Below are positions 4,878 to 32,940 of a stretch of DNA of 33,443 bases, in pieces. This stretch comes from Pseudobutyrivibrio ruminis (GTDB lineage: Bacteria; Bacillota; Clostridia; Lachnospirales; Lachnospiraceae), in the NCBI GenBank assembly GCA_015057305.1, contig SVES01000035.1, positions 1 to 33,443 of the forward strand. The letters run 5' to 3'. Below the pieces are notes generated by a model. That model was not told the DNA's origin. It saw only the letters and a list, made by a program, of their open reading frames with translations, and made no database searches. Numbering within the stretch: position 1 is the first letter of the stretch; every line of letters begins with the position of its first letter. The position numbers and the translations under genes are program-made.

Positions 4878-5831
4878 TTACACCCTCACCTCAATATTAG
4901 TTAGCTGTTCTCCAGAATAAAGGTGGTAAAATTCATTGGGAGTCATATATCTTAAACTTGAGTGTAATCTTCTGTTATTATAAAAATTTATAAAATCGTT
5001 TACTGTTTTATATGCCTCCGTATAGCTTTGAAATTCATTACTTTTAAAACATTCATCTTCAAGTATTCTGTGGAAAGATTCCACATGTGCATTTTTATTT
5101 GGAGTTTTTACTGGTATTCTTTCATGATGTAATTTAAATTCTTCACAGCATTCTTTAAATTTATAGCTTACAAATTGTGGACCATTATCGGTTCTTATAA
5201 CAGGTCTTGTAGCACCTTCTGCAAATAGCTCCCTTTTAATTAGGCTTTTACTTAATAATGCGGTAGCATCCTTGGCTTCACAATGAAAACCTATATGATA
5301 ATCTACAATGTTTCTATCGAAGATATCTATAATATTCAGCATATAGAAAAATTTATCTTCTCCTTCAATGTACCCATATTTGATATCCATTTCCCACAAT
5401 TGGTTTGAACCTGTTATAATTCTGTTAGCAGCAATGTTCCGCTTAACTTTAGGTTTTATAACCCTTTGATTCTTTAGGATATCCAGTTCTTTGCATAGCC
5501 TATATACTTTTTTATGATTTATAATAAGTCCATATTCGCGTTTTAGATAATGCATTATTTTCCTATAACCATAATTTATAGCATCACCTTCTATAGCTTG
5601 TAAAATATATTCCTTAATTTCATCATCACAGATTTTCTTACCTTTTTCAGTTAATGAATATCCCTTTGGTTTGCCGCCTAACGGCCTATATTTTTCTTTC
5701 CCATCTACACTTAAATTATAGTAATATGTAGATCTTGATAAACCAACTATTTTTAAAACAAAAACTGCATTATAACCTTGCTCTATATATTTTTTAGCTA
5801 CTGCTACTTTATCTTTAATTGAGGGTTCGCT
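4878..5831 (-). CDS. IS3-family transposase OrfB (made by -1 frameshift from OrfA)
   Basis: DDE transposase (rve integrase core) with an HTH_21-type front part. An ATG within the frame lies at 5555, but the frame stays open upstream to the slippery A7 run at about 5831-5837, giving SEPSIKDKVAVAKKYIEQ as the beginning, so the real product is probably an OrfAB fusion. Catalytic residues are visible as WEMDIKYG (first Asp), RTDNGPQF (second Asp) and HVESFHRILEDE (Glu). The C-terminus has the YNNRRLHSSLRYMTPNEF motif of the family. All catalytic residues are present, so it appears intact and possibly active. Confidence 0.85.
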   Translation of the reverse strand, partial: SEPSIKDKVAVAKKYIEQGYNAVFVLKIVGLSRSTYYYNLSVDGKEKYRPLGGKPKGYSLTEKGKKICDDEIKEYILQAIEGDAINYGYRKIMHYLKREYGLIINHKKVYRLCKELDILKNQRVIKPKVKRNIAANRIITGSNQLWEMDIKYGYIEGEDKFFYMLNIIDIFDRNIVDYHIGFHCEAKDATALLSKSLIKRELFAEGATRPVIRTDNGPQFVSYKFKECCEEFKLHHERIPVKTPNKNAHVESFHRILEDECFKSNEFQSYTEAYKTVNDFINFYNNRRLHSSLRYMTPNEFYHLYSGEQLTNIEVRV

Positions 5832-6133
5832 TTTTTTATTAAGTCTTTAAGAATTGCTATTTCTAAATCTTTTTCTCCTAATATCTTTTTTAAAGTATCA
5901 TTTTCTTTTGTTATTTCTGTTATTTCTTTTTCAAAGTTATTTTTTCCCTCAATTAAAGCCTTTCTACCTGGCTTCACCTTAATTTCATCTTTTTGTTTAG
6001 AATTTTTGATCCATGTAAATATAGTGGATTTTGAAATTCCATGTTTTCTTGAAACTAATGAAACATTTCCAACTTCCTTTACCTCGTTTATTATTGATTC
6101 TTTTAATTCTTTTGCATAACTTCTGCCTCTCAT
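5804..6133 (-). CDS. IS3-family transposase OrfA (helix-turn-helix)
   Basis: The 109-residue DNA-binding OrfA has an N-terminal HTH (RGRSYAKELKESII ... GISKSTIFTWIK) and a C-terminal leucine-rich coiled coil (EKEITEITKENDTLKKIL...). It begins after a GGAGGT site. Near its 3' end, TTA-ATA-AAA-AAA-GCG forms the A-AAA-AAA slippery heptamer used for -1 frameshifting into orfB. It is the upstream half of the transposase gene of copy 1. Confidence 0.85.
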   Translation of the reverse strand: MRGRSYAKELKESIINEVKEVGNVSLVSRKHGISKSTIFTWIKNSKQKDEIKVKPGRKALIEGKNNFEKEITEITKENDTLKKILGEKDLEIAILKDLIKKANPQLKIK

Positions 6134-7375: not shown

Positions 7376-8287
7376 TTAGCTGAAATGTTTTATCCTCCAT
7401 TTGATTGCTATGTTAATCTTGCCATCAGTTATACTAGCAGAAATGTCATGCCCCATTTGTTCAACTAATTCTCTAGTTATAGCTAAGCCTAGCCCAGTAC
7501 TCTTGTCGCTTCTTGTAGTATCTGCTGTAAAAAAACGGTCAAATATATGATTAATATTTTCTTCTTTCAAATTTGGAGCATCATTTGTAAAAGTAGTTAT
7601 AATATAATCTTTATATTCTTCTAGAGATATGGACACAAACTTATTTCCGTATTTTAAAGCATTTTCTATTAAATTTGAAAAAATCCTTCTTACTGCATTT
7701 TCATCAGCAATAATTAATAATGTATTCTCTTCAATATCAATGACAGGTTCCATATTTCTAGCTATAAAATCCATATAATATAATGCTATTGAATCATAGA
7801 TTATATTGCTTAACTTTATAGATTTTAAATCAAATTTGTACTCACCTGCTTCAAGTCTAGATAAATCATAAAAACTCGATATTAAAGTCTGTAAAGATTC
7901 CGCTCTTCTTCTAACTATATCCAAGTATCCCCTTCTCTCGTTATAGGTTAAATTGTCGTCGTCCATAAGTTGAATATATCCAAGTATAGATGTAAGGGGT
8001 GTGCGCAAATCATGGGACATGTTTGCAATAGCACGCCTAAGCTCTAACTCCATATTATTATGTTGAATTTCTGATTTTTGTTTTTCTTCTAAAGTTTTAT
8101 TTATCTCTATGGCTAGGTTTCTTAAATTTCTATTAGAAAACATCATCAATATTTTTGAATTGGTTTTAGTTTTGTTAATTTCATTTAGTTGACTAGCTAT
8201 ATTTTTAATCTCTTTACAGTGTAAAATATAAAGGGTGATAAATACGCCCAAAATTATAATAGTAAAAATCATAATTAATAATTGCAT
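7376..8287 (-). CDS. Sensor histidine kinase of the peptide-resistance operon
   Basis: The roughly 303-residue kinase has one N-terminal hydrophobic segment (QLLIMIFTIIILGVFITLYI) and essentially no extracellular domain. The dimerisation/phosphoacceptor box is ANMSHDLRTPLTSILGY, the N box NLIENALKYG, and the G boxes include TGLGLAITRELV. ATG at 8287 is preferred to an upstream GTG at 8296 because AGGGTGG lies just before it. It is last in the order regulator - ATPase - permease - kinase. Kinases lacking a sensor domain beside an ABC exporter usually detect peptides through the transporter. Likely role: phosphorylates the regulator encoded at 10064-10759. Comparable gene sets include the CprABC-CprRK type of Clostridioides and lantibiotic immunity loci; the exact substrate is unknown. 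Confidence 0.85.
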   Translation of the reverse strand: MQLLIMIFTIIILGVFITLYILHCKEIKNIASQLNEINKTKTNSKILMMFSNRNLRNLAIEINKTLEEKQKSEIQHNNMELELRRAIANMSHDLRTPLTSILGYIQLMDDDNLTYNERRGYLDIVRRRAESLQTLISSFYDLSRLEAGEYKFDLKSIKLSNIIYDSIALYYMDFIARNMEPVIDIEENTLLIIADENAVRRIFSNLIENALKYGNKFVSISLEEYKDYIITTFTNDAPNLKEENINHIFDRFFTADTTRSDKSTGLGLAITRELVEQMGHDISASITDGKINIAIKWRIKHFS

Positions 8288-8306
8288 AATTACCACCCTT
8301 TTTCCT

Positions 8307-9062
8307 TTATTTTACTTCCATCTTGCTAAAATATAAAATACTTAAAATTGTAAACAATATTGTATATACTATACCCACAATAGCTGCAAAAATCAAAGTA
8401 TCTTTTCCTACCACATCATAACGCAAATTCATTAAATTTGTTGTAATTAAAATCTTATGGATGTACATAAACTTTTCTGATATAAGATTAGAAAGCATTT
8501 GTAACACCAATCCTGATACAGTAAATAAGCCAGCGTATATAAGTGCAAATATGGTGTTGTTTTTTATAGCAAGGCTAAGCAAAGTTCCTATTGATATACC
8601 AGCTATCCATAAAGGTACTGCAGCTAGTAATCTTAGGGAAAAATCTTTAAGAATACTTATTGAAAAATCTTCACCTAATCCAAATAATATTGTGCTACTA
8701 CCTAAGAATACTGTTAGTATTATTAAAGCTGCAATGGCAGATAGAATGGTTGTAGCAATTATTTTGGATAGAATAATCTTATTTCTGGCAACCCCAAAGG
8801 ATACAATATTTTTCAGTGTTAAGTTTTTATTTTCTTCACTTGTTATCATGTCTACCATCATTATAACAAGAAATATGGGTACATTTATAACTTGAATGCC
8901 CATAGTCATTACTCCAACTAAACTCATGTGATCAGAAACTGCTGTTATCTTAATTATAATATTTAATAATAATCCTGCAATAGATATGAGTATGACAAAA
9001 TTCCAATAATACAGTCTGTTGAAGTTTCGATAAAGTTCAGCCTTAATATAATTAATCATCAT
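8307..9062 (-). CDS. ABC-2 type permease, lantibiotic/cationic peptide resistance type
   Basis: About 251 residues with six hydrophobic segments (for example WNFVILISIAGLLLNIIIKI, VINVPIFLVIMMVDMI, TILSAIAALIILTVFLG and a final AAIVGIVYTILFTILSIL). It resembles BcrB/SpaG-like permeases that move bacitracin or lantibiotics away from the membrane. The start is set at ATG 9062 because GGAGGGG precedes it; a TTG at 9074 gives a longer frame but without a site. Its start overlaps the stop of the ATPase gene (ATGATGATTAA), a sign of translational coupling. The function depends on the neighbouring ATPase, which is frameshifted as given here. Confidence 0.82.
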   Translation of the reverse strand: MMINYIKAELYRNFNRLYYWNFVILISIAGLLLNIIIKITAVSDHMSLVGVMTMGIQVINVPIFLVIMMVDMITSEENKNLTLKNIVSFGVARNKIILSKIIATTILSAIAALIILTVFLGSSTILFGLGEDFSISILKDFSLRLLAAVPLWIAGISIGTLLSLAIKNNTIFALIYAGLFTVSGLVLQMLSNLISEKFMYIHKILITTNLMNLRYDVVGKDTLIFAAIVGIVYTILFTILSILYFSKMEVK

Positions 9063-9976
9063 GATCCCCTCCAATTAAATCAATAAAATAATTTTCTAAA
9101 TTTATTCCTGTTTGATTGATGGAGGAGACCATTACACCGTTATTTATAAGGGTTTTAGTTACCATTTCTGGAGCATCAACATATTCATATAGTCTAATTT
9201 CATTATCGTTTAATACCTCATATTTATTTGTATTTAACCTTTTTTCAATTATAACAGTAGACTTTGCAGTATCACTTACCTTAAGCGATAGGAAACGTCT
9301 GCATTTTTCATTTAATTCTTTTGATGAAATTTGTTCTAATATCTTACCATTATGGATAAACCCATAAGTTATTGCTATTTGAGAAAGCTCCCCCAATATA
9401 TGGCTTGATATAATAATGGTAATATTTCTCTCCCTATTAAGCTTTAGTATCAGTTCTCTAAACTCTACAATGCCCGTAGGATCTAATCCATTAATTGGTT
9501 CATCTAGTATAAGAAAATCTGGGCTACCCATTATGGCAAAGGCTAAACCTAAACGCTGTTTCATGCCAAGGGAAAAATCTTTAAATTTTTTCCTCCCAGT
9601 ATCCTGAAGACCAACAATTTTGAGAACATCTTTAACAACCTTTTTATCTACAATTCCTTTTTGTATTCTGTAATACTCTAAATTTTCAGATGCAGACAAA
9701 TAGGGAAAAAAAACTTGGAGTTTCAATTATACAGCCTGTTCTCATTCTTGATTTATTTAGTCCATAAGTGGAGGTTTCCCCAAATAGTTCTATTTCTCCA
9801 CTTGTTGGTATTGTAAGTCCACTAATCATTCTAAGCAAAGTCGTTTTTCCTGCGCCATTTTTACCAATAAGTCCATATATATCTCCTTGTTTTACTTCGA
9901 TATTTGCATTATTAACTGCTAAATGGCTTTTATACTTTTTAGTTAAATTATTTGTTTTGAGTACTATATCTGCCAC
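9052..9976 (-). pseudogene. ABC transporter ATP-binding protein (BcrA-like), frameshifted in a homopolymer
   Basis: The N-terminal part (GTG start 9976, after GGAGGT) contains Walker A GLIGKNGAGKTTLLRM and reaches IETPSFF; then eight T (minus strand) shift the frame and it ends after about 96 codons. The rest continues in another frame from FPYLSASENLEYYRIQKGI with the signature SLGMKQRLGLAFAIMG, Walker B FLILDEPINGLD and the switch His in IIISSH. Removing one T (T8 to T7) gives IETPSFFPYLSASENLEYY, a seamless BcrA-type ATPase of about 307 residues. Either the gene is off, is slippage-variable, or the base is an assembly error. It overlaps the permease gene downstream and follows the response regulator by 87 bases. 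Confidence 0.85.
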
Positions 9977-10063
9977 TTAAGTTTACCTCCTTCATCTTGT
10001 TGATTCTATTCTAAAATAAAATCTACAAGATAATATAAAGAAAAACTTAAGAAAGTCTTAAGT
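9977..10063 (-). promoter_or_regulatory. Probable regulator-binding repeat upstream of the ABC operon
   Basis: Between the response regulator stop and the ATPase start the minus strand reads CTTAAGACTTTCTTAAG (about 10043-10059), two CTTAAG words with an 11-base period. OmpR-type regulators bind direct repeats with about this spacing. A TATATTATCTTG AT-rich region follows and could hold the -10. Inference: the regulator encoded just upstream controls the ABC genes from here. Confidence 0.5.
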
Positions 10064-10759
10064 TTATTCACTGATTTTAAATCCTATTCCCCATACTGTA
10101 CGTATATACTCCGTATCTGGATCTACTTTAGCTAATTTGGAGCGGAGATTACTTATATGCACATTAACTGTATTATCATCCCCTAAGAATTCATCGTTCC
10201 AAATTTTTTCGTATAAATTTGCCTTTGTAAAAACTTTGTTTGGATATAACATCAAAAGCTCTAATATTGCAAATTCCCTCGCTGTAAGAAAAATAGCTTG
10301 ATCTTTAATCTTAACTTCTATGGTATCTCTATTTAAAGTCAAATCTTTATATTTTAATATATTTTGTCTATCCTTTTTATTAGAAAATATCATATAGCGT
10401 CTTAACTGGGCTTCTACTCTTGCTAAAACTTCATTTACATCAAAGGGTTTGACGATAAAATCATCCGCCCCAAGTTTTAATACTTCTATTTTTGTATCCT
10501 GTTCTATTTTTGCAGAAATAACTATAATAGGCATGTTTTTAATTTTCCTTATTTGTGAAATAATTTCCTGGCCTACAATTCCTGGTAGCATTAAGTCTAA
10601 TAATACAAGTTGAAAATCATAGTGTTCAAGACATAGCATGGCTTCAGTTCCTGAATAAGCAGGTTTTACATTATATCCTTGTTTCTTAAGCATTGTACAT
10701 AATAGATTATTTATATCTATATCATCTTCAACAACTAATATATTTATAATCTCTCCCAT
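10064..10759 (-). CDS. OmpR-family response regulator of the peptide-resistance operon
   Basis: The 231-residue regulator has an N-terminal receiver with the acidic pair VVEDDID, the phosphoacceptor in LVLLDLMLPG (Asp near residue 57), and the conserved Lys in FIVKPFDVNE. The C-terminal winged helix includes LTAREFAILELLML and DDNTVNVHISNLRSKL, ending VWGIGFKI. ATG at 10759 follows an AGGAG site. It leads the gene set regulator - ATPase - permease - kinase on the minus strand and probably activates the ABC genes from the CTTAAG repeats just after its stop. Appears intact. Confidence 0.9.
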   Translation of the reverse strand: MGEIINILVVEDDIDINNLLCTMLKKQGYNVKPAYSGTEAMLCLEHYDFQLVLLDLMLPGIVGQEIISQIRKIKNMPIIVISAKIEQDTKIEVLKLGADDFIVKPFDVNEVLARVEAQLRRYMIFSNKKDRQNILKYKDLTLNRDTIEVKIKDQAIFLTAREFAILELLMLYPNKVFTKANLYEKIWNDEFLGDDNTVNVHISNLRSKLAKVDPDTEYIRTVWGIGFKISE

Positions 10760-11018
10760 ATCATCGACTCCTTTAGGATTTTAACGGTTTATAATCTTAA
10801 ATAAAAATTGATACTCTAAATCCTTATGCAAAATTGTACCAATGAAGTATCCAAAGTGCAACAATAATCATTCATTATAAGTATTCTCATTGAGAAATAC
10901 AATAGCTTTTTAGATATCTGATATCCTTTAAACTTTTAAATCCATTGAGTATAAACCTATTGGACTCGTTACATAATTTGAGATAGTGGAATGTTGTTCA
11001 CTTCAAATCTTACTCTCT
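10760..11018. other. Intergenic region between bceB-fusion stop and response regulator
   Basis: About 260 AT-rich bases. It should hold the promoter of the response regulator, and perhaps a terminator for the bceAB-hydrolase operon, but I see no strong hairpin with a U tract and no clear box pair. Confidence 0.35.
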
Positions 11019-14000
11019 TTACTTTATAAATTCAACCTCTGGATATAGTGTTGATGGTGAATCCAATAATGGTTGAGGGATATCTTTTAAATGAAGATCA
11101 AAGAATGATGCTATATAGTTTCTCTGCGCCTCAAACACTTGATCAGGGTCAGCAGTACCGATACTTTGTTGAATTACCCTTGGCGAAATACTTAACTTTC
11201 TATTAAGTTGCGGAAAAAGAATCTGATAATCAGTAAAGGTATAATGTGCTCCATTGGGTATGGCAAGGTCCAATTTCCATCCAGTTGAATTCTTCCAGAA
11301 AGAATTTCTATCCTTTGCAGTGAGATGGGAATCTACTTCTCCATCATCATTATAACCTGAGTTCATAAGCATAAATGGACGGTTTAAACCATACTCAGCT
11401 ACAGGAAGCAGATAATCAGGCATATATCCCAAGCTACCATCCATATCTATACCTGCATCTACCCTATCATCTTCATACATAACTTGTGCAGAAGTTGCGC
11501 CACCAGCGGAATGTCCAAATATACCTACCTTCGTAAGATTTAATACTTTATCAAGACCCGTAGGCAATCTCCTCTGTTCATAATCAGGGTTTTTACCATC
11601 CTGTATTGCAGCAAGCTGATCTAGTACATATTTCATATCATCAACTCTTACATCCATCATCTTAAGCACGGTCTCTGCGTTCATGTCTTTTAATTTCCCA
11701 GTTTCAACACGTCCATCTGGAAATTCAACTGCAGAAGTTTCATATGTGTGGTCTACTGTAACCACTACGTAGCCTCTGCTTGCTAAATCTTCCACTACTG
11801 CAGTACCAAAATTTCTTGGAACTGTACCTCCTGGAGAATATAAGATTACCGGCCACCCTTCATCGCTGTTTGCAACTAGTGCATTAACCCATGCATTTGT
11901 AACTATGCCGGATAAGTCAATTTGTCCAGGATCTAATCCAATAGTTGTAACAGTGTTTTCATCATAATGTTTAGCTGCTCCAGGTTTCATATACAATGCT
12001 TTTTCTTCGCTCTCTCTCTGTGCAGGATACCAGATACTTATCATAAGTTCCCTTACTTTATCCTTCACCCAAGGATCAACTCGTGTATCATCTACCAAGT
12101 GTATTTCAGTAGTACCTATCTCATACTGACCTGTTGGTTTTGGAAGTTCCAAAATAATCTTCTGGTCGGTATAAGGTTCTTCTTTCTCTACTGGTGGAGT
12201 AGTCCAAAGCAATGTTCCAACCAGTGCGATCATAAAGATCAAGACTAAAGCAACTAGTGCCCTAACTACTGGGAGAGATTTACCATTAACTATCTTAGTA
12301 GATGAGTTAACTGTAATTCCAAAATAAATTGCATATATAAAGCTAAATATAATTACACATAAAACTATAGACTGAATCAAATTTACTCCTGCCAAATTAC
12401 TAAAAAATCGTTTCAGAAAATTTATAATTGCTATATAATGTGCCACACCTATAACTAATGGTAAACCAAATATAAATACATTTTGTTTAAGTATGGACAT
12501 GCTAATATCTCTATTGCTTACCCCTATTTTACTAAGAATCTCGTATCGTGATTTATCTGAAGTCACTTCAGATAGTTGTTTAAAGTAAATTATGCTGCCC
12601 GTTGCCATAATAAATACTAATCCAAGAAACCCTAATATAAACACATTAAAAGCTGCTCCTTCTATACCTAGCCTATATTCTGTATAAAATGTAGATAACT
12701 TGGATTCTGGCGTCTTGATTTCTGCCAGTGCATTTGTAGTTTTCTTCGTAGTCTTTTGATCCTCTACAACATATCCAACATAGTCTACCGTTGTACTTTG
12801 TGCTTTGAATTTACCATAATCCTCATCATTTACTACAATCATCACATCAGGATAGCTCCAATTGATTACTCTCTCAACTGTCATATCTTCAAACTCAAGA
12901 GTTATATCTTCCTTAGGAAGATTAAGAGTAATAGTCTCACCCTTATAATCAGATGATTCATAGTCCGTATACATTGGTCTTATTGCAATTGCTTTTCCAT
13001 TTTCAATACTAGGTAGAGCAGTTAATCCTAAAATATTTGCAACCTTATTATATTGACCTACAGAGATTATCTTCACAGGGTTCTCATCAGCATTTGCTTC
13101 TCTTTCTGATAGTATCTTTGAACTTGAAGCTTCTCCTTTGCTTTTAATTACGGAGATTGTCGTTTGAGCAATAACAGGATGCTCTTCATCTCCTTGGATT
13201 ATATTATCTACACTCCCATTAAAGGTTTCACCCTGAGAAATATACATATAACTAAAGGGTGTTGCCAATCGAGAGTTTTGTTCAAAACCATAGTACATTC
13301 CAACACCAACGCTGACGGCAGATAATGCAACTGCAGATAATAATGATATTACACTTAAGATTCTGGAATTATCTTTAATTCGATAAACTAGATTAGATGT
13401 AATTATTAAGTTCATTCCATTATAGTAGCTTTTCCTGTTGCGCTTTTTCATTTTAAGCAGCAGAACCACCGCTGAAGAGAACAGTAATATAGTTCCTAAT
13501 ATTATTCCTACAAGGCTTATGCTAATATTTTTAAGGACTTCTTGATTATCCGAAAACCTTTGAAATGCGAACCAATAGCCTAAGATTAAAGAGAGCACAG
13601 CCAGTATGCCAGATATAACAGATGCCTTAGGTTCCTGTTCTCCAACCTGTTCTGCTCTAAACAGTTCAATCAGTTTAAATTTATAAATCAATCTATATCC
13701 TTGAATAGACGTAAGCAAAATAATAGCTATAAATACAATGGTTGTATTTATAACAGCCTTAAGAGAAAATACCATGCCTACATCTATTACTATTCCAAGG
13801 AGTCTAACTAAAATCATGCTGAATAATCTAGACAAAAATGTCCCTACTGCAATTCCTATTATTAATACTATAATACCCATAATAAAGTTTTCATAAAATA
13901 GCATTCTACCTATAGTTTTTTTCTGTAAACCAAGAAGGGAATACAATCCTACTTCTTTTTTTCGTTTTCTTGCAAAAGTTCTATTTGAATACAGTATAAA

Positions 14001-14219
14001 TACACTTACAAATAGTATAAGTATAACAGACGCCACCATAAAAATTGACTCCATTGCCTCTGAGGATTCTATACCCCTTGCTATTTCTGTACTATACTGC
14101 AGAGAAACGAAGGTATAATAAATAACTACACTAAAAAGCATAGAGATAAAATAAATAAGGTAGCTTTTAAAATTTCCTTTCATATTTTTCTTCACTACAT
14201 CAAATAATGTCACTTGCAC
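11019..14219 (-). CDS. BceB-type ABC permease fused to a PAF-acetylhydrolase-like alpha/beta hydrolase
   Basis: A single uninterrupted 1066-residue frame. Residues 1-648 are a full BceB-like FtsX permease: about ten membrane segments (near 18-40, 58-78, 108-130, 155-175, 202-220, 232-256, 285-310, 521-545, 580-602, 616-640) with the large external domain at about 311-520. BceB proteins normally end here. An additional membrane segment follows (about 650-671, VALVLIFMIALVGTLLW), then a hydrolase of about 385 residues resembling platelet-activating-factor acetylhydrolase/dienelactone-hydrolase proteins: ELMISIWYPAQ, oxyanion loop LYSPGG (793-798), nucleophile GHSAGG (Ser904), Asp927 in GIDMDG, and His992 in GAHYTFTDY. 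The Ser-to-Asp distance of 23 matches the human plasma enzyme. Positive residues before the extra segment predict the hydrolase outside the membrane. GTG start overlaps bceA by 20 bases. Substrate unknown; antibiotic or lipid ester hydrolysis is inference. Confidence 0.9.
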   Translation of the reverse strand: MQVTLFDVVKKNMKGNFKSYLIYFISMLFSVVIYYTFVSLQYSTEIARGIESSEAMESIFMVASVILILFVSVFILYSNRTFARKRKKEVGLYSLLGLQKKTIGRMLFYENFIMGIIVLIIGIAVGTFLSRLFSMILVRLLGIVIDVGMVFSLKAVINTTIVFIAIILLTSIQGYRLIYKFKLIELFRAEQVGEQEPKASVISGILAVLSLILGYWFAFQRFSDNQEVLKNISISLVGIILGTILLFSSAVVLLLKMKKRNRKSYYNGMNLIITSNLVYRIKDNSRILSVISLLSAVALSAVSVGVGMYYGFEQNSRLATPFSYMYISQGETFNGSVDNIIQGDEEHPVIAQTTISVIKSKGEASSSKILSEREANADENPVKIISVGQYNKVANILGLTALPSIENGKAIAIRPMYTDYESSDYKGETITLNLPKEDITLEFEDMTVERVINWSYPDVMIVVNDEDYGKFKAQSTTVDYVGYVVEDQKTTKKTTNALAEIKTPESKLSTFYTEYRLGIEGAAFNVFILGFLGLVFIMATGSIIYFKQLSEVTSDKSRYEILSKIGVSNRDISMSILKQNVFIFGLPLVIGVAHYIAIINFLKRFFSNLAGVNLIQSIVLCVIIFSFIYAIYFGITVNSSTKIVNGKSLPVVRALVALVLIFMIALVGTLLWTTPPVEKEEPYTDQKIILELPKPTGQYEIGTTEIHLVDDTRVDPWVKDKVRELMISIWYPAQRESEEKALYMKPGAAKHYDENTVTTIGLDPGQIDLSGIVTNAWVNALVANSDEGWPVILYSPGGTVPRNFGTAVVEDLASRGYVVVTVDHTYETSAVEFPDGRVETGKLKDMNAETVLKMMDVRVDDMKYVLDQLAAIQDGKNPDYEQRRLPTGLDKVLNLTKVGIFGHSAGGATSAQVMYEDDRVDAGIDMDGSLGYMPDYLLPVAEYGLNRPFMLMNSGYNDDGEVDSHLTAKDRNSFWKNSTGWKLDLAIPNGAHYTFTDYQILFPQLNRKLSISPRVIQQSIGTADPDQVFEAQRNYIASFFDLHLKDIPQPLLDSPSTLYPEVEFIK

Positions 14220-14967
14220 TTCCCCCTAACATATTTAAAACATCCAATATTTTTTTAAAAAAGTCTTTTCGGGATGTATTTCCCTTAACAAGCTCTGTAA
14301 ATATATTTCCATCTTTTATAAAAAGCACCCTCTTACAATAGCTTGCTGCAAAGGCATCATGAGTTACCATAAAAATTGTTGCCTTATCTTGTTCATTAAG
14401 TGATTTTAAACTTTCCAAAAGATCCGCAGCGGACTTTGAATCTAATGCTCCCGTTGGCTCATCAGCTAATATTAATCTTGGATTTGATATTATAGCACGT
14501 GATGCCGCCGTACGCTGTTTTTGTCCCCCTGAAATTTGATAAGGATACTTTTCAAGTATAGGGCGAATACCAAACTTATCTGCAATTTCATCAACTCTGC
14601 GTTCCAGCTCTGATACATGCATTTTAGCTATTGCCAAAGGAAGCAGAATATTCTCCTTCACAGTCAATGTATCTAATAAATTATAATCCTGAAAGATGAA
14701 GCCCAATTTATTCCGTCTAAAAGCAGACAATTGTTCCTCATTCATATTCAATATATTCTCTCCATCTATCACGATATGGCCAGAGGTTGGCTGATCTATT
14801 GTAGCTAAAATATTTAAAAGAGTTGTTTTCCCTGATCCGGAAGGACCCATGATTCCAACAAATTCTCCTTCCTGAACGTTCAAGTCAATTCCATGCAAAA
14901 CAGGAAAAACAGTTTCCTTTAGACCATACACTTTTTTGATCTTTCTTGCTTCTACAACTGTTTTCAT
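14200..14967 (-). CDS. bceA: ABC transporter ATP-binding protein, BceA type
   Basis: The 255-residue ATPase of the MacB/LolD/BceA group has Walker A MGPSGSGKTTLLNIL (near residue 40), Q loop FIFQDYNLLD, signature ISGGQKQRTAASRA, Walker B LILADEPTGALD, and the switch His in FMVTHD. Start ATG follows GGAGG. It overlaps the permease-hydrolase gene by 20 bases and should power it. Together with the divergent regulator/kinase pair it forms a Bce-type module, which removes antimicrobial peptides such as bacitracin from their lipid targets and reports transport activity to the kinase. Confidence 0.92.
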   Translation of the reverse strand: MKTVVEARKIKKVYGLKETVFPVLHGIDLNVQEGEFVGIMGPSGSGKTTLLNILATIDQPTSGHIVIDGENILNMNEEQLSAFRRNKLGFIFQDYNLLDTLTVKENILLPLAIAKMHVSELERRVDEIADKFGIRPILEKYPYQISGGQKQRTAASRAIISNPRLILADEPTGALDSKSAADLLESLKSLNEQDKATIFMVTHDAFAASYCKRVLFIKDGNIFTELVKGNTSRKDFFKKILDVLNMLGGSASDII

Positions 14968-15017
14968 ATATTAAATTCCTCCATTTAAGTAATTTCTAAT
15001 CCTGTTTTAATATTAGC

Positions 15018-15046
15018 ATTATAAAATCAAATAATCCCTTTATTAA
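15018..15046 (-). promoter_or_regulatory. Promoter of bceA-bceB/hydrolase operon
   Basis: On the minus strand TTAATA (15041-15046) and a perfect TATAAT (15018-15023) are separated by exactly 17 bases, about 50 bases before the bceA start. The weak -35 suits an activated promoter. A CCTTAC word (15047-15052) directly abuts the -35 box. Confidence 0.7.
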
Positions 15047-15102
15047 CCTTACGATTTAAAAGCTCAACCTTACAATTTTGTAAGCTATTTCTAAAGCCTT
15101 AC
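15047..15102. promoter_or_regulatory. Candidate BceR operators between divergent promoters
   Basis: Three CCTTAC words start at 15047, 15068 and 15097. The second forms an inverted repeat, CTTACAA-TT-TTGTAAG (15069-15084). They lie between the bceA promoter and the bceR promoter, with the first abutting one -35 box and the third overlapping the other. BceR-type regulators bind inverted repeats upstream of bceAB promoters, so these are good candidates; the binding itself is inference. Confidence 0.55.
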
Positions 15103-15175: not shown

Positions 15176-15847
15176 ATGAAGATAATGATTGTAGAGGACG
15201 AACCTATTATTAGAGACATGATTGGAGAAAGCATAAGAAAATGGGGATATGAAACTATAATTTTAGATGACTTTAGCCAGGTGCTTGAAATATTTCTAAA
15301 GGAAAATCCCCATCTTGTATTAATGGATATAAATCTACCTGTTTACGATGGATTCTACTGGTGCAATAAAATCAGAGACATTTCAAAAGTACCTATTATA
15401 TTTATTTCATCTCGTAATACACCTATGGACATGGTCATGTCCATGAATATGGGTGGAGATGATTTTATTCAGAAACCCTTCTATGAGGAAGTTCTGATAG
15501 CTAAAATAAAGGCTCTACTTCGCAGGACATACTCATATACTGAAACAGTTGCTACAATAATTGAACATGATGGAATTATACTAAACCTTAATAATGGAGA
15601 TGTTTTTTATGGAGATAAAAAGGCGGAACTTACAAAAAACGAATTTAAAATTCTAAATATACTTATGCAAAACAAGGGAACGGTAGTAAGCCGTGAAAAA
15701 ATCATGCGCAGCCTTTGGGAGGATGAAAGTTTTGTAGATGATAATACTCTGACAGTTAATATTGCTCGTATACGCAAGAAGCTAGCTGAACTAGGCAAAG
15801 AGAACTATATTACTACTATGAAGGGAGAAGGCTATATAATAAGATGA
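15176..15847 (+). CDS. bceR: Response regulator, BceR type
   Basis: The 223-residue OmpR-family regulator has receiver residues IVEDEPIIRD, phosphoacceptor Asp in LVLMDINLPVYDG, and the Lys in FIQKPFYEEV. The MDINLPVYDGFYWC stretch is characteristic of BceR-like regulators. The C-terminal winged helix contains LTKNEFKILNIL and VDDNTLTVNIARIRKKL. It is divergent from bceA and overlaps bceS by four bases (ATGA). It probably activates the bceA promoter, and its own, when antimicrobial peptide transport is demanded. Confidence 0.92.
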   Translation: MKIMIVEDEPIIRDMIGESIRKWGYETIILDDFSQVLEIFLKENPHLVLMDINLPVYDGFYWCNKIRDISKVPIIFISSRNTPMDMVMSMNMGGDDFIQKPFYEEVLIAKIKALLRRTYSYTETVATIIEHDGIILNLNNGDVFYGDKKAELTKNEFKILNILMQNKGTVVSREKIMRSLWEDESFVDDNTLTVNIARIRKKLAELGKENYITTMKGEGYIIR

Positions 15848-16869
15848 AATTTTTAAAATATGTAGAAGATAAACGTTACTTTTTGATATTATTCATAATA
15901 ATGATGTCCTTTGTAACACTTATGATGATGGTCAGTTCTAATAAAGAGCAACTTGTAGGCAATATTATATATACAAACTTAGGTTGCATATTTCTAGCAT
16001 CGATCTATATTATTACAGGTTATTTTTATCATAACTCTTTTTATAAACAGCTTAATGAATTGATTAATAGTGATGAAAAAGAAATATTGGAAGCAGCTCC
16101 TCAGCCACAGAACTATGAGCAGGAGCTATATATGGAACTGTTAAAAAAAGTCCATAGTAGTTATATGGATAATATTGAAAAGCTTTATAATGAGAAAAAA
16201 GAACATCAAGACTTTATTATGTCATGGATTCATGAGGTAAAACTTCCTATTACGGCAAGCTTTATGCTTATGAGAAATAGTGCTGATAAAACAGTAGATT
16301 ACCTCGTAGATAAGTTTGAAGATGAATTACACAAAATAGAAAATTATGTGGAACAGGCATTGTATTATTCTCGTATCGACTCCTTTTCAAAGGACTATTT
16401 TATTACAGAAATATCATTGAATAAGGTCATTCGAGAAAGTATAAAAAAGCATTCCAAGTTGTTTATAAATAAACGGATTACCTTCACAATATGGGATGAA
16501 GAGCAATTTGTACAAAGTGATAGCAAATGGCTTAGCTTTATAATTGATCAGATTATATCAAATTCTTTAAAGTATACAAATGATGGCGGCTCTATCTCTT
16601 TTATATTTGAAGAGGATAGTAAAGAAAAACTACTTCGAATTAAGGACACTGGAATTGGTATCAAACCTGAGGACATCAACCGTGTATTTGAGAAAGGGTT
16701 TACAGGCTCAACTGGAAGAAATTACTCCAAGTCTACCGGAATGGGGCTTTATCTTGCCAAACAAATGGTTTTAAAGCTAGGACATAATATATCAATTCAA
16801 TCTGAAGAAGGAAAATACACAATGGTTAATATTCACTTTCCTAAATCTGACAACTATTATCTATTATAA
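15844..16869 (+). CDS. bceS: Intramembrane-sensing histidine kinase, BceS type
   Basis: The 341-residue kinase has two closely spaced N-terminal membrane segments (about 12-30 and 41-60) with only a very short external loop, as in BceS kinases that do not bind peptide but follow the BceAB transporter. The phosphoacceptor box is MSWIHEVKLPITASF, the N box IISNSLKYT, and the G boxes DTGIGI and STGMGLYLAKQMV. Start overlaps the bceR stop. It completes a full Bce module with the unusual permease-hydrolase fusion. Intact. Confidence 0.92.
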   Translation: MKFLKYVEDKRYFLILFIIMMSFVTLMMMVSSNKEQLVGNIIYTNLGCIFLASIYIITGYFYHNSFYKQLNELINSDEKEILEAAPQPQNYEQELYMELLKKVHSSYMDNIEKLYNEKKEHQDFIMSWIHEVKLPITASFMLMRNSADKTVDYLVDKFEDELHKIENYVEQALYYSRIDSFSKDYFITEISLNKVIRESIKKHSKLFINKRITFTIWDEEQFVQSDSKWLSFIIDQIISNSLKYTNDGGSISFIFEEDSKEKLLRIKDTGIGIKPEDINRVFEKGFTGSTGRNYSKSTGMGLYLAKQMVLKLGHNISIQSEEGKYTMVNIHFPKSDNYYLL

Positions 16870-18120: not shown

Positions 18121-19103
18121 CTACAACTTTATTAACTGTTTAACCGCAGTACCATTTAGGACATTTTTATAATATTCTTCTGGGGCAACATAGCCAATAG
18201 AGCTGTGAATTCTAACTTTATTATAGGCACTCATAAATTCTGATACCTTTTTATAGGCATGGGCAAAACTTTGAAATTCATATCTTGATAGACATTCATC
18301 TTCTAGAATTCTATGGAAGGATTCTATATGTGCATTTTTATTAGGTGTAGCATAGGGAATTCTTTCATGTTCCACCCCTAGTCCTATACAGGTATCTTCA
18401 AAATGAAAACTTGTAAACTAGGGTCCATTATCTGACCTTATTATTGGCTTATTTTCTTTGTCATAAAGGTTTCTCTTCAGCATTGCCCTTTTTAGGGTAA
18501 TGGCTACATCTTCAGCTTTGCAGCTAAGACCCAGATAGTAGTCTACTATGTTTCTATCATAAACATCGATATAGGATAATATATAGAAGAACCTATCTTC
18601 TTCTTGTATATATCCATATTTTATATCAACTTCCCAAAGAGAATTTGAGGAGATAACCTCTCTATTTCTTGCTATTTTTCTTGGGTGTTTTTGCTTTATT
18701 TTTCTTTGAGGTCGTAGGATATCTAACTCCCTACAGAGCCTATATACTTTCTTTTTATTGATAATTAAATGATACTCATTCTTTAAGGTAATGGTAATTT
18801 TTAAGTAGCCATAAAACTCACAGCCTTTGGTTTCTAGTATTTCAAGGATATATTCCTTTATTTGATCATCACATATTCGGTTTCCTTTTATATCAAAGGA
18901 ATATCCTGGTGCTGGTCGTCCCCCTTTATTCAGAGAATTATTTTCACCTTTAATGGAGTTATCTCTAGAATTAATATTGTAGTAATAGGTTGATTTATTT
19001 AGGTTAAGAATTTTTAAAACTTTAATAGCACTATATCTAGCTTTTACCCATTTATAGGCTATTTCCACTTTATCTTTTATTGAGGGTTTGTTTTTTTTAA
19101 AAG
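18121..19103 (-). pseudogene. IS3-family transposase OrfB with an internal amber stop
   Basis: The frame runs from the slippery A8 run (about 19100) through KPSIKDKVEIAYKWVKARYS, the HTH_21 part, the first catalytic Asp in WEVDIKYG, to RSDNGP, then TAG at 18418-18420. In relatives (and in copy 1, RTDNGPQF) the next codon is Gln, so a CAG-to-TAG change is the simplest cause. After the stop the same frame continues FTSFHFEDTCIGLGVEHERI to the catalytic Glu region AHIESFHRILEDE and the end at 18121. Without readthrough the product lacks the last catalytic residue, so this copy is probably immobile alone. Confidence 0.88.
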
Positions 19104-19376
19104 GTCACGTAAAATTGCTATTTCAAGGTCTTTTTCGCCTAATAATTTCTTAAGTTGATCATTTTCTTTACTTAGACTATTGGAGTCTTTATTATTACTA
19201 TATTTAGAAGAAACAATAGGGTTATTAGATTGTTTGGACTCTCTTACCCATCTAGTTACTGTGCCAGCTACTAAATCGTGTTTTCTGGCAACTAAGGTAG
19301 CATTGCCTGTTTCCATAACTTCTTTTACAATTTGTTGTTTATATTCAGCTGAATATCTGTTTTGTCTGCTTCTCAT
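19077..19376 (-). CDS. IS3-family transposase OrfA, copy 2
   Basis: About 99 residues: N-terminal HTH (RSRQNRYSAEYKQQIV ... HDLVAGTVTRWVRE) and C-terminal heptad segment (KENDQLKKLLGEKDLEIAIL). ATG at 19376 is favoured because GGAGG lies nine bases upstream; an in-frame TTG at 19385 also exists. The gene ends with an A8 run suited to -1 frameshifting into orfB. The C-terminal GEKDLEIAILRDLLKK segment is nearly the same as in copy 1. Confidence 0.82.
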   Translation of the reverse strand: MRSRQNRYSAEYKQQIVKEVMETGNATLVARKHDLVAGTVTRWVRESKQSNNPIVSSKYSNNKDSNSLSKENDQLKKLLGEKDLEIAILRDLLKKTNPQ

Positions 19377-19450
19377 TTTGAACAACCTCCTGATATTTTT
19401 ATTTTATTGGATTTGTGTGTGATTGTCCAAAATGATTAGGGGGCTTAAGA

Positions 19451-26216: not shown

Positions 26217-28937
26217 CTATTTTCTTTTTTGCTTATCCAATCCATTCTTTACAGAAATTAGGGAAACATCCTTATCAGTTGATTTTTTTCTAAAATTAGA
26301 TAATACTACTTTTTCTGTTTCTGGCGTCCAATATATTCTCAACCTTTCTCTGGCCCTAGTAATGGCCGTATAAAATATATTGTGAGTAATCTGTTCGTCA
26401 ACCTCATCAGTGATTACAACTTTTACAGAATTATATTCCAAACCTTGTGCCTTATGTATAGATATTGCATATGCCACCTGAAACGGTACTATGTGATCTG
26501 CATTTAAATCATCATCTTCGTCTGTACTTTTAAATTTGTTTACAGTAAAGCGGATAATAGAATCTCCATCTTCAGTCTCATTTATTAACTCGAAATCATA
26601 CCCTGAAGCTTGCATTTCATTAATAGGTCTATCTAGTAAGATATCGAACTGAATCTCTCTTTCATGTGCTTCTATATTAACTATCTTTCCTTTTGAATTA
26701 TTATAAATTAGAGGATGGAATCTGTTAGATTCATTAAATAAAATAGGATCTCCAATTCTATAGGTTTGAACTCCCCAAACAACTTCTGGATTTGGGTTGT
26801 TACCTTGTAGAAATCTATTAATATTGTTTATTCCATAAAGCCCATCATAGTTCAAGCAAAGAACAATTTCATCATCTACTGAACGTTCAAAAATTGACTC
26901 ATCTAAGTCAGATGTGTAATCATTCCTAGCTAAATGTTCCAATATATCTTCATCAAGTTCTCTTACCTTTTTCCATACCGTTAAGAGGCTCTGGTTTTTA
27001 CTACGATATGGTTCTTCTAATTCGAAAACAGAAGTCTTCGGTACAAATGATCGTACAATATTAAACCAATTCCCAAAAGTTATAGATTCTATTTGGAATA
27101 TATCTCCAACTAGTACAAGCAATTTAAATGTTGATTTGTTTATGACCTCATACATATGGGCATTGCTTACCGTACTACATTCATCAATAAACAACACATC
27201 GCAATCTGTATCAATATGTGAAGAAGTCAAAAATTTAGCAATTGTATAGTAGGTACAATTAGATGCATGCACTTTTTGCTTCATATTGTCTACTGCTGGA
27301 TTAGTATTTGCTAGGTAGATTTTCTTTTCATCATTAAAAAAATTTGATATGTGGTTTATTAATGTAGTTTTACCTGTACCTGCAGCACCATATATTAGAG
27401 ATACACTAGATTTATCAAATGCATTTCTTAAAGCTGTCTTCTTTTCTTCACAATCTATTATGTGGGATGTATTCTCAAGCCAATAATCAACGGATGACTT
27501 ATAACCTTTAATTCCTTCTTTGGTTAATTTATTCAGTGATTTAATTATTTTTACAGCATTTTCTTCATACCCCTTAATATAAAGCTGCCCTTTAAACTCT
27601 TTTATTTTTCTGCTTTCATGTTTGTAATATAATCGCCTATTATATTCATTAATTAGATCATCGATATTTTCAAAATTCATTATATCTTTTTTACTGGTAA
27701 ATAGCTGTCCTTCTATTTCCGTATTGTTTTTTATCATTCTAGCAAATAGTTCATGTTCTCTATTATTCACATCTAAACAAAAAAGTAAATCAATCAATCG
27801 AGGATTATGGTTTTTTAAAGATGTGTTGAAAGGCATTTTATCAAATGGAATACACCCATATTCTAGATATAGGTTTGATAATAAATTGCAAGTATTATGA
27901 CCAATCTGACTTTTTATTATTTTATTATTCATTCTATAAAGTAAATATTTAAGTACATTAGTCCCAGGTGAGTTGCTGATAATTATTTCTCTACATTTAT
28001 CTAGCAAATCAAAAATCAATGAGCTTTTAGACCTGAGGTTTGCTTTTTCCCTTATTCTTTCATAATAATCTCGTGGCATACTAACAAGTTCATCAAGAGT
28101 GATTCCGGTTGTTAAAATAAATAGCATTAACTTTCTGTATTCATTATAATTAGTTGAAATTTTATAATTTAAACCAAAAATACGTGCAAAATTATTCAAT
28201 TCACAAGGGCGAATAGATGCCTCATAATTTTCAATAATTCTAATTGGCATTTTCTTTCCTAGAACTTCAATCATGTCATTCCTGATCCAAAATTTAACTG
28301 CATAGTTAGATATTATATCAATATGAGTAAAAGCTATTATCCTATCAAACTTACTTACATTATCATTGGCAGTTGTAAATGTTACTTCATAGTATATCTT
28401 TTCATTTATAAAAAATGGTTTGATTTTTCGTATATAATACCTATCATTATATTCACTTCGATATCCACTCTTTGATGGACTTTTTATTTTCTCGGCTATT
28501 TTTTTGTAATATTCATTCAAGTGCGGGTCAACTTCTAATGGAAATTTATGTATATTAGACAGAATTTCTATGTTGTACCTATCTTTTAATAAGTCTTTTA
28601 TCTTTATCATATATTCGTAATATTTGAGCATCAATCTTTCTGCATGTCCTTCATCAAGGGTATAGTGAGAAGTAGAGACTTGAAGGAATTTATGGAACTT
28701 ATGTAAAAAATTTAGATAGCTAACTTTTTTGACATAATCATTTGCTTTTTGAATATTAGCATATGTTATTTCAATATCATGACCATTACTAAAAGCTTTT
28801 AGTGAGACATGTTCTACTAAATCACGTAAATCTGATAGAATATTTTGAGACAGAAAACCACGATCAGTAGATTTAAAGTAATCAATATTTTTACAAATTT
28901 TTTTATCAATAACCGCTATTGCATGATCAATTTTCAT
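26217..28937 (-). CDS. Superfamily 1 DNA helicase (RecD/UvrD-like) with a large uncharacterised N-terminal region
   Basis: The 906-residue protein has an N-terminal region of about 500 residues that I do not recognise, followed by a helicase core: motif I YGAAGTGKTTL (Walker A, 516-526), motif II VLFIDECST (about 581-589), motif III GDIFQIES (611-618), motif V AISIHKAQGLEYN, and motif VI FYTAITRARERLRIYW. The YAISIHKAQGLEY and TRARER pair is typical of RecD2-like and related SF1 enzymes. It is preceded by the DUF1413 gene (13-base gap) and serine recombinases, and ends exactly at scar C. Role unknown: element maintenance or phage defence are both possible. Appears intact. Confidence 0.8.
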   Translation of the reverse strand: MKIDHAIAVIDKKICKNIDYFKSTDRGFLSQNILSDLRDLVEHVSLKAFSNGHDIEITYANIQKANDYVKKVSYLNFLHKFHKFLQVSTSHYTLDEGHAERLMLKYYEYMIKIKDLLKDRYNIEILSNIHKFPLEVDPHLNEYYKKIAEKIKSPSKSGYRSEYNDRYYIRKIKPFFINEKIYYEVTFTTANDNVSKFDRIIAFTHIDIISNYAVKFWIRNDMIEVLGKKMPIRIIENYEASIRPCELNNFARIFGLNYKISTNYNEYRKLMLFILTTGITLDELVSMPRDYYERIREKANLRSKSSLIFDLLDKCREIIISNSPGTNVLKYLLYRMNNKIIKSQIGHNTCNLLSNLYLEYGCIPFDKMPFNTSLKNHNPRLIDLLFCLDVNNREHELFARMIKNNTEIEGQLFTSKKDIMNFENIDDLINEYNRRLYYKHESRKIKEFKGQLYIKGYEENAVKIIKSLNKLTKEGIKGYKSSVDYWLENTSHIIDCEEKKTALRNAFDKSSVSLIYGAAGTGKTTLINHISNFFNDEKKIYLANTNPAVDNMKQKVHASNCTYYTIAKFLTSSHIDTDCDVLFIDECSTVSNAHMYEVINKSTFKLLVLVGDIFQIESITFGNWFNIVRSFVPKTSVFELEEPYRSKNQSLLTVWKKVRELDEDILEHLARNDYTSDLDESIFERSVDDEIVLCLNYDGLYGINNINRFLQGNNPNPEVVWGVQTYRIGDPILFNESNRFHPLIYNNSKGKIVNIEAHEREIQFDILLDRPINEMQASGYDFELINETEDGDSIIRFTVNKFKSTDEDDDLNADHIVPFQVAYAISIHKAQGLEYNSVKVVITDEVDEQITHNIFYTAITRARERLRIYWTPETEKVVLSNFRKKSTDKDVSLISVKNGLDKQKRK

Positions 28938-28950
28938 TTTTATTTTCCCC

Positions 28951-29190
28951 CTACTTTATTTTCATGTATCTTTGCTGGTTTGATGAAGTTTTTTCAATAG
29001 CCTTTATCCCTTCTCCATTTAATTTGTTTACATAGTTTAAAAATAAAGTCCCAAGCAAAAGTCGGTCTTTTCTCGGTATTCGATTCCAAACATACCCTTT
29101 AAATAGTTCTTTAACTAAAAACACTTCACCATCATTTAAATTTTCTGCTTCCTTAATTGCTTCGTCTAATAACATATTTACATCACCCAA
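28951..29190 (-). CDS. DUF1413-family small protein
   Basis: The 79-residue protein contains LVKELFKGYVWNRI, PRKDRLLLGTLFLNYVNKLN and IEKTSSNQQRY, the DUF1413 pattern. The function of the family is unknown; it is common on clostridial mobile elements. TTG at 29190 is a good start because GAGGAGAG lies about six bases upstream; an internal ATG (29175) is the alternative. It lies between the recombinases and the helicase, and the C-terminal half is duplicated as a remnant at 23763-23900. Confidence 0.75.
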   Translation of the reverse strand: MGDVNMLLDEAIKEAENLNDGEVFLVKELFKGYVWNRIPRKDRLLLGTLFLNYVNKLNGEGIKAIEKTSSNQQRYMKIK

Positions 29191-29270
29191 GTTATTCTCT
29201 CCTCGTCAATATCTTTGTTAACAATATTGTTGATAATATTATATAAGTAAAATTCATCTTTTACAATATG

Positions 29271-29310
29271 AAAAGTCGCCAATCTAGAGAATTCCACTCA
29301 TAGATTGACG
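29271..29310 (-). terminator. Terminator after the recombinase genes
   Basis: CGTCAATCTA / TAGATTGGCG (29301-29310 with 29277-29286) make a 10-bp stem with one G-U pair, followed on the minus strand by ACTTTT. It lies 18 bases after the stop of the last recombinase (29328). Confidence 0.65.
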
Positions 29311-29327
29311 CCATTTAAATATGTTTT

Positions 29328-30896
29328 TTATTCTATATCTATTTCTGCTCCTGACTTAAACTCTACTGTAAGCTTATCATCAAAAACTGTTACTTTATCA
29401 ATCAGCATTCTTACCAGCCTTTCATCATATTCTTCTAGTAGGCCATCTTGCTCATTTAAGAACTTCTCCATTTCCTCCAGTTTTTGCTTAGATCCTTTTC
29501 TTTCAGCTTGATCTATCAGAACCCTATGCCTATCTTCTCTCAGCTTATAAATCTCATCAGCTATGTCATTATAATTTTCTTTTGAGTTGGCTCGCTTTAG
29601 TAGCTCATTCTGTAGCTCTTCCATCCTTTTATCTATTTCTACTACTTCTTCATTACTATTTTTAGTTATAACTGTTTCTATATTTTTCTTTAGTAGAGGT
29701 AAAAATTCATCTTTTTGAGCAAGTAATTTATTAACTGCTTCAACTATTGTAGAGCATAGCATCTCCTCTGGCACAGTCCTAGCTTTACAGGTTAGTCCTG
29801 TACTTTCAAGCCTACTAACACATCGCCATACAATTGATTTTTTCCCTCGATTATTCCAGTGGACTCTCCTAAATATTTCTCCGCACTGGCCACAAAACAC
29901 AATCTGAGCAAAAGCGTGGTTGGAACTAAAGTTTCTTCTTTTTCCGCTTGCACCTATATGTCCTCTACTTCGGCGGGCTAGCTCCTCTTGGACTTGCATG
30001 AAAATCTCACGTGGTATTATAGCCTCGTGATTATTCTCCACATAATACTGAGGAACAATCCCGTTATTCTTAACCCTCTTCTTTGTAAGAAAATCTACTG
30101 TGTAGGTTTTTTGCAAAAGTGCATCTCCCATATATTTTTCATTACTTAATATTTTTCTAATGGAGCTGGTATGCCACCTCTTTCCACCCGCTCCTGTAAG
30201 AACTCCATCAGCTTCTAAACCTTTTTTAATCTTGTCCATAGAAGAGCCTTCAAGATATTCCCTATAAATTCTTTTAATGATTTCTGCCTCTTCAGGAACT
30301 ATGACTAGCTTCTTGTTTTCGTCTTTGGTATATCCTAAAAATCTAGAGCAGTTAACCATAACTTGACCTTGCTGGTATCTGTACTGATATCCAAGCTTAA
30401 CATTCTGACTTAAGGATTGACTTTCCTGTTGTGCCAAGGAAGCCATAATGGTTATCATGATTTCTCCCTTGGCATCCAGTGTATTGATATTCTCCTTTTC
30501 AAAATAAACAGCTACATTTTTCTCCTTAAGCTTTCTAATATAGTGGAGACAATCTAATGTGTTTCTTGCGAATCTACTTATTGACTTTGTAATTATCATG
30601 TCGATCTTGCCTGCCATACACTCATCAATCATTTTATTAAATTCATCTCGTTTTTTAGTGTTAGTTCCACTTATACCATCATCAGCAAAAATACCTGCAA
30701 ATGTCCATTCATTATTCTTTTTAATAAAATCTGTATAGTGTTCTATCTGTACATCATAGCTACTGGCTTGCTCTTCACTCTCTGTTGAAACTCTGCAATA
30801 TGCAGCTACTCGTAATTTTGGTATTTCATCTTTATTTTCACTATTTCCAGCACGCCTTACGGCAGGAATGATAACAACATTTTTATTAACTGCCAT
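29328..30896 (-). CDS. Large serine recombinase, third of a triplet
   Basis: The 522-residue large serine recombinase has the catalytic domain at the N-terminus ([20 protein letters not shown]; nucleophile Ser in [15 protein letters not shown] with the conserved Arg), a Recombinase domain ([20 protein letters not shown] ... [11 protein letters not shown]), a zinc beta-ribbon ([11 protein letters not shown] ... WRCVSR ... LTCKAR), and a C-terminal coiled coil ([20 protein letters not shown]). It starts after AGGAGGT and overlaps the end of the 145-residue middle gene by 11 bases. It should act with the first recombinase in integration and excision of the element. Confidence 0.93.
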
Positions 30897-32879: not shown

Positions 32880-32940
32880 TGTCTCACCCCCTTTTTTGTA
32901 GGTCACATATTACCGTTAAAACACTTATATATCAACTTAT

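Follow-up and report, generated by a model that had tools for sequence, protein, structure and literature searches.

A permease–esterase fusion in a Bce-type module of Pseudobutyrivibrio ruminis and its possible role in destroying ester-containing peptide antibiotics

The window analysed here, a stretch of 33,443 nucleotides (nt) of Pseudobutyrivibrio ruminis DNA (contig SVES01000035.1 of assembly GCA_015057305.1), contains a gene in which a BceB-type permease and a serine hydrolase of the PAF-acetylhydrolase family are encoded in a single uninterrupted frame on the minus strand (11019..14219). The ATPase BceA and a divergent pair of response regulator and intramembrane-type kinase complete a Bce module around it. 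We suggest, with a probability of about 0.55, that this is a Bce defence module with a tethered outer serine esterase, which would sense a membrane-bound peptide antibiotic containing an ester, extract it and hydrolyse the ester that closes its ring.

The fused gene and its two halves

Only two domains were found by Pfam on the encoded chain, FtsX (E = 2.7e-18) and PAF-AH_p_II (PF03403; E = 9.3e-16, 57.8 bits against a gathering cut-off of 20), and no NCBIfam family was found for the protein. The source genome contains one copy of the gene, with no internal stops. The preliminary description of this DNA, made from its letters and open reading frames (ORFs), had proposed a BceB permease joined through an eleventh membrane helix to an intact PAF-acetylhydrolase-type hydrolase, and the analysis supports this arrangement. 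An alternative GTG at 14213 is the likelier start, because most aligned homologues begin with MTLF or VTLF and the overlap with bceA is then 14 nt. The protein would thus have 1064 amino acids (aa); residue numbering is kept from the start at 14219.

Table 1. Features of the module and its flanks in the window (residues numbered from the start at 14219; TM, membrane segment).
Feature	Position	Strand	Remarks
bceB-hydrolase fusion gene	11019..14219	-	1066 codons from GTG 14219; likely start GTG 14213
BceB-type permease part, residues 1-645, ten membrane segments	12285..14219	-	Pfam FtsX, Foldseek
Large external domain between TM7 and TM8, residues ~320-510	12690..13262	-	from the modelled secondary structure
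Linker and eleventh membrane helix (TM11), residues 646-689	12153..12284	-	hydropathy and charge bias, 29 rows
PAF-acetylhydrolase-family serine esterase part, residues 690-1066	11022..12152	-	
Codon of Ser904, nucleophile, in GHSAGG	11508..11510	-	
Codon of Asp927	11439..11441	-	
Codon of His992	11244..11246	-	
bceA, ATPase	14200..14967	-	3' end overlaps the likely fusion start by 14 nt
BceR-like response regulator, divergent	15176..15847	+	position conserved in other fused loci
BceS-like kinase	15844..16869	+	HATPase_c by Pfam
Whole cassette common to the window and Schnuerera sp. xch1, 94% DNA identity	11017..16860		similarity ends here
Two IS3-like stretches flanking the cassette	4878-5908 and 18121-19385		HTH_21 and rve by Pfam

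The catalytic residues of the hydrolase half are found where the preliminary description had placed them, and they are strongly conserved. The Ser904/Asp927/His992 triad is invariant in 29/29 rows of the fused-protein alignment, which holds the window and 28 other proteins out of 33 fused sequences. Of the four sequences left out (P0001, P0004, P0019 and P0030), only P0019, which has a frameshift, lacks the His; the other three have all three residues, giving a complete triad in 32/33 fused sequences with the window included. The triad is also invariant in 76/76 rows of the hydrolase alignment. Modelled alone, the hydrolase gave a confident structure (predicted local distance difference test score 96.7; predicted template modelling score (pTM) 0.95), which aligned over nearly its full length with an esterase of Streptomyces cinnamoneus (5yal) and with human PAF acetylhydrolase. 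It also matched folds resembling polyethylene terephthalate (PET) hydrolases.

Pfam, the helices of the model and Foldseek agree that the permease half is a single FtsX-type permease with ten membrane helices, followed by one extra helix. Its model had template modelling scores, normalised by target, of 0.77-0.81 against the BceB of BceAB/BceABS entries 8s5g, 7tcg, 8g3a and 8g4c, and 0.67 against 7tch (Foldseek). The modelled external domain of about 190 aa is slightly below the range described for BceAB-type transporters, in which the domain between TM7 and TM8 has about 200-250 aa, with values of 195, 216 and 220 in a table of the same source (PMC5786555).

The linker and TM11 (residues 641-689) are the least conserved part of the fused proteins, with a mean pairwise identity of 28.5%. 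The character of a membrane helix is nevertheless kept in the 29 aligned rows, where the best 19-residue hydropathy ranges from 1.69 to 3.22 (mean 2.64). The mean net charge is +2.1 before the helix and -1.4 after it, and TM11 would therefore run N-in/C-out. Together with the helix count and with the N-termini of separate relatives, which resemble signal peptides, this bias predicts that the hydrolase lies outside the membrane.

Recurrence of the fusion and of its operon

Counts from the homologue and genome searches in this section refer to the matches listed. Both domains were found on one chain in at least 32 protein clusters, 56-99% identical and including that of the window, among the best 120 of 808 homologues, so that the fusion is not an oddity of one assembly; fused loci recur, and not every relative has the hydrolase as a gene of its own farther downstream. 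Carriers include Schnuerera, Bacillus, Paenibacillus, Novibacillus and a metagenome-assembled genome (MAG) of Thermoactinomyces, and a genome scan added fused copies in Aminicella, Shimazuella and Clostridium thermopalmarium. Because both domains occur together in these 32 clusters, the triad is kept and the fused proteins form clades in both trees, the fusion is not an artefact. An error of assembly or annotation is practically ruled out by the many independent assemblies, the tree-like divergence and the stop-free joint.

In the permease tree, fused permeases fall into one clade, which also holds a frameshifted entry (P0035). Fused hydrolases likewise fall into one clade with a support of 100, together with an N-terminally truncated protein (P0033), a fragment (P0121) and a pair of stand-alone hydrolases (P0126 and P0130) on a long branch of unsure placement. 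The simplest reading of the two trees would be a single fusion event. The two halves are under similar constraint. Mean pairwise identity among fused proteins is 63.5% in the hydrolase, 63-64% in the membrane parts and 53.5% in the external domain, and in a comparison with the Schnuerera copy the permease half and the hydrolase half alike have a ratio of nonsynonymous to synonymous substitution rates of about 0.16.

The fusion is rare. Genome searches, with up to four candidates scored per genome, covered the family and class of Paenibacillus mendelii and the class of the window. In the family of P. mendelii, which we take to be Paenibacillaceae, a fused copy was found in 15/394 genomes (in one, the permease part has a frameshift) and a separate hydrolase alone in 2/394 (E <= 1e-100). 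The hydrolase was found in 3/398 genomes of the class of P. mendelii, as one separate copy, one fused plus separate and one broken fused, and in 2/391 genomes of the class of the window, whose own was counted (both E <= 1e-90). From the window's genus, 28 further genomes were searched, several of them incomplete, and none had a fused match. An ancestral fusion in the host genus is therefore not supported (0/28), and acquisition by the host is the likelier course.

The operon recurs with the fusion. Of 21 other fused loci read with their context, 20 have the gene for BceA directly upstream, and 17 have a divergent regulator-kinase pair of BceRS-like type. These loci are not all independent, because three from Paenibacillus (L029, L031 and L032) are more than 99.5% identical over about 3 kb. 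Among 13 named loci (L022-L034), BceA is directly upstream in all 13 and the pair is present in ten; L025 and L031 are without it, and L022 is cut by a contig end, with other sequence there. Seven further distinct loci (L122, L123, L124, L126, L127, L130 and L133) all have BceA and the pair, although the permease of L122 is frameshifted; five more fused loci from the same search duplicate named ones and were not counted again. The remaining locus of the 21, that of Novibacillus thermophilus, has neither BceA nor the pair. BceA and a regulator were also present at L146, which was read with 1.5-kb flanks and stands outside the count of 21. In the window, the BceS-like kinase has two N-terminal membrane helices joined by a short loop, and judged from its sequence is of the intramembrane-sensing type. 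As a side observation, the fused gene at L029 is followed after about 1 kb by a VanZ-like gene (12282-13235), and ORFs similar in size and place were seen at L025, L031 and L032.

The two families also occur together without fusion. In P. mendelii a separate hydrolase gene with a signal-peptide-like N-terminus lies 39 nt before bceA, in the order hydrolase-bceA-bceB. Both its permease and its hydrolase fall outside the fused clades, so direct descent of the fusion from this operon is not supported, and the operon therefore represents a second, apparently independent meeting of the two families. In a Clostridiales MAG (L049, 1-11149), a stand-alone hydrolase lies within 5 kb of genes for a nonribosomal peptide synthetase, an AMP-binding ligase and a phosphopantetheinyl-transferase, which hints that such hydrolases may meet nonribosomal peptides. 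The genome that carries the P. rhizosphaerae locus also contains a hydrolase relative split over two frames (L135, 8548-9659).

Kinship with known systems and proposed function

The hallmarks of Bce systems are described as a BceB with ten helices and an external domain and a kinase with a short loop (PMC5786555), and a BceABS structure has been reported (PMC10314905). Like BceAB/BceRS of Bacillus subtilis, the module of the window has a ten-helix FtsX permease with an external domain between TM7 and TM8, BceA, and a response regulator with an intramembrane-type kinase. Unlike BceAB of B. subtilis, it adds an eleventh helix and an esterase, and the permease identity is only 22-24%. An outer enzyme beside a Bce transporter has a precedent in Streptococcus agalactiae, where NSR is described as a membrane-anchored nisin serine protease encoded with the Bce-type NsrFP (PMC5786555). 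As in NSR/NsrFP-NsrRK, a Bce-type transporter is paired here with a membrane-anchored enzyme, predicted to lie outside; NSR is reported to destroy the peptide. However, NSR is a serine protease encoded by a separate gene, whereas in the window an esterase-type domain is part of the permease chain.

DrcRS-DrcAB, a Bce-like system of transferable daptomycin resistance published in 2025, appears to be the closest characterised relative. According to its description, its expression inactivates daptomycin, partly by ester hydrolysis: dehydroalanine is transferred to kynurenine, and the ring is then opened by hydrolysis of the Kyn-Thr ester (PMC12033364). Its authors call drug inactivation by a Bce-type system unexpected (PMC12033364), and a review likewise describes daptomycin as chemically inactivated (PMC12641126). 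The drc locus is described with a 14-nt drcA/drcB overlap, a divergent two-component pair and mobile flanks (PMC12033364). The module of the window resembles Drc in being Bce-like, in its divergent regulators, in the 14-nt overlap of the A and B genes (with the start at 14213) and in apparent mobility. DrcB of Mammaliicoccus sciuri (GenBank PP236779) was set against the fusion by its published description. In that account, drcB of representative species has 97.20-99.64% DNA identity to that of M. sciuri TS92, and a drc-like cluster with 83.26% DNA identity from Novibacillus thermophilus SG-1 gave no high-level resistance when cloned (PMC12033364).

The genome of N. thermophilus read here is presumably that of strain SG-1. 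It has four clear BceB loci and a fifth, weak match. Among the clear loci, an unfused one (L160) is the only one that has a divergent pair together with a bceA overlapping its bceB by 14 nt. It is also the closest module to that of the window among those read, with identities of 80% for BceA, 70% for the response regulator, 62% for the kinase and 46% for BceB; at another Bce locus of this genome (L161) BceA is 57.5% and BceB 25% identical. These identities, the divergent pair and the 14-nt overlap place the module of the window near Drc by sequence and layout. A probable difference from Drc is the fusion, as the drc-like BceB of N. thermophilus is unfused. Since, among the clear BceB loci of that genome, only this unfused one combines A, B and a divergent RS pair, DrcB is most likely unfused as well. 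Among the best 120 of 872 close relatives of the drc-like BceB of N. thermophilus, no Mammaliicoccus or Enterococcus name was found.

The esterase half shares its fold and Ser-Asp-His triad with the PAF-acetylhydrolase isoform II family and with 5yal, solved enzymes that, unlike the window's, come without a transporter. Cyclic lipopeptides are reported to be opened at their ester by SfhA, a hydrolase of surfactin (PMC13188892, PMC4976088), and by daptomycin esterases of Streptomyces, which reportedly use a Ser triad (PMC3324550); the likeness to these enzymes was drawn from their descriptions. SfhA differs in being described as secreted. Judged by titles and abstract openings, no described BceB-hydrolase fusion was found among the papers listed from the open-access literature searched. 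The statement of the preliminary description that no Bce system with a catalytic domain is described does not stand as written, given NSR/NsrFP and DrcAB. Enzymes acting next to Bce transporters thus have precedents, and what was not found described is their fusion with the permease.

In the current view, the lipid target is freed by Bce transporters, and a released peptide can rebind. In the proposed mechanism, an antibiotic on its membrane target would engage the transporter, whose work would activate the kinase and raise the expression of the operon. ATP-driven extraction would hand the peptide to the outer side, and the tethered esterase would open the ester ring of the released peptide. 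The enzyme being tethered at the site of release, release would therefore mean destruction instead of rebinding. We infer sensing and extraction from BceAB/BceRS, and ester cleavage of a lipodepsipeptide from DrcAB and the Ser-triad daptomycin esterases of Streptomyces. The substrate is likely to be an ester-containing lipodepsipeptide. This class is the weakest step, argued from the ester-hydrolysis chemistry of the fold, the kinship with Drc and the Bce context. Bacitracin, which to our knowledge has no ester bond, is for that reason an unlikely substrate, and lipodepsipeptides are better candidates. A wider proposal is more tentative, and we hold it at somewhat below even odds: a Bce clade of single origin, related to Drc, may have turned target protection into destruction through a permease-borne esterase that opens lipodepsipeptide lactones, and may have spread laterally in Bacilli and Clostridia.

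If the esterase reading is true, target release would be made irreversible by an enzyme on the permease chain, and the type of daptomycin inactivation seen with the Bce-like Drc would gain a concrete active site. Whether and how such Bce modules destroy drugs would become a question of losing function through one residue, and the fused loci would mark a reservoir, in the environment, of an architecture that may confer lipopeptide resistance and deserves watching.

Several observations weigh against a tethered antibiotic esterase. The closest solved relative of the hydrolase bears the title "ferulic acid esterase". The whole-protein model (pTM 0.60) does not fix the position of the hydrolase relative to the external domain; the preliminary description had placed the hydrolase outside the membrane and next to that domain, and the outside position stands as a prediction supported by the charge bias of TM11. 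The clade of fused permeases contains a full-length unfused member (P0034). The fused gene of N. thermophilus (L159, 3604-6788) has no BceA or regulators within the 14 kb read, and a frameshift precedes the part that would contain His992. Of 11 loci with an unfused bceB like that of P. mendelii, read with flanks of about 1.5 kb, only one had the hydrolase. Canonical BceAB is described as releasing lipid targets from bound peptides, and bacitracin is reportedly not inactivated by it (PMC7038271). If DrcB is unfused, ester cleavage by Drc would need no such domain. Finally, an inducible activity of Paenibacillus lautus that cleaves the daptomycin ester is described as sensitive to ethylenediaminetetraacetic acid (EDTA) and not significantly affected by inhibitors of Ser esterases (PMC3324550), and therefore fits a Ser esterase poorly.

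Among other explanations, the one that deserves most weight, at perhaps one chance in five, is that the esterase works on lipids, trimming acyl esters of the membrane or cell wall near the transporter in the manner of a PAF acetylhydrolase or phospholipase and so altering the target. The title of the closest solved relative, which does not name a phospholipase, speaks against it. That title, and the PET-hydrolase-like matches, would fit degradation of a secreted signal or nutrient ester (a lactone, feruloyl or polyester-type compound), the transporter only localising the enzyme. This is improbable given the usual BceA and BceRS partners, since the module is described for antimicrobial peptides (PMC5786555). 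Equally improbable is that the window's locus simply is a drc locus and DrcB of M. sciuri itself this fused protein. The layout, the 14-nt A/B overlap, the ester cleavage and the mobility described for drc would all agree with such an identity, and the window's cluster at 90% has 166 members; however, the drc-like candidate of N. thermophilus is unfused, and the fused gene there, about 65% identical to that of the window, stands without A and RS. Far less credible still is a hydrolase domain that serves as a binding platform, presenting the peptide to the external domain of BceB without useful catalysis. Such contact is compatible with the whole-protein model, given its uncertainty, and nothing else speaks for it, whereas the conserved triad and purifying selection favour catalysis.

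Mobility and neighbouring genes

The cassette is consistent with recent spread by lateral transfer and appears mobile, because the similarity to Schnuerera and Aminicella stops at the edges of the shared stretches. Positions 11017-15090 are 99.1% identical to an Aminicella contig. The Aminicella copy is adjoined by a UPF0236 gene, which we take to belong to a transposase-related family. The HTH_21/rve stretches in the window presumably belong to the IS3 family; they are only 65% identical to each other, and a composite transposon was rejected. In plasmid records, 18 matches were found at E 1e-50, the best of them spanning about 61% of the fused protein and thus none reaching 80%, and an unfused permease (P0101) had two distant matches. 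Viral contigs gave no confirmed relative of P0101 or of the hydrolase alignment. An anti-phage system was also considered and set aside, as PADLOC gave no match.

Directly downstream of the fused gene, the window holds a second regulator-kinase-ABC set (7376-10759, minus strand). It comprises a VanR-like regulator, a VanS-like kinase and an ATPase nearest to those of lantibiotic protection (gallidermin type), each scoring under its NCBIfam cut-off, together with a permease-like ORF that matched no family. Farther away on the minus strand (26217-32906), a RecD2-like helicase and a large serine recombinase resembling CcrB/XisF, both below cut-off, lie beside an ORF of 528 aa. The helicase and the recombinase may be signs of an integrative element.

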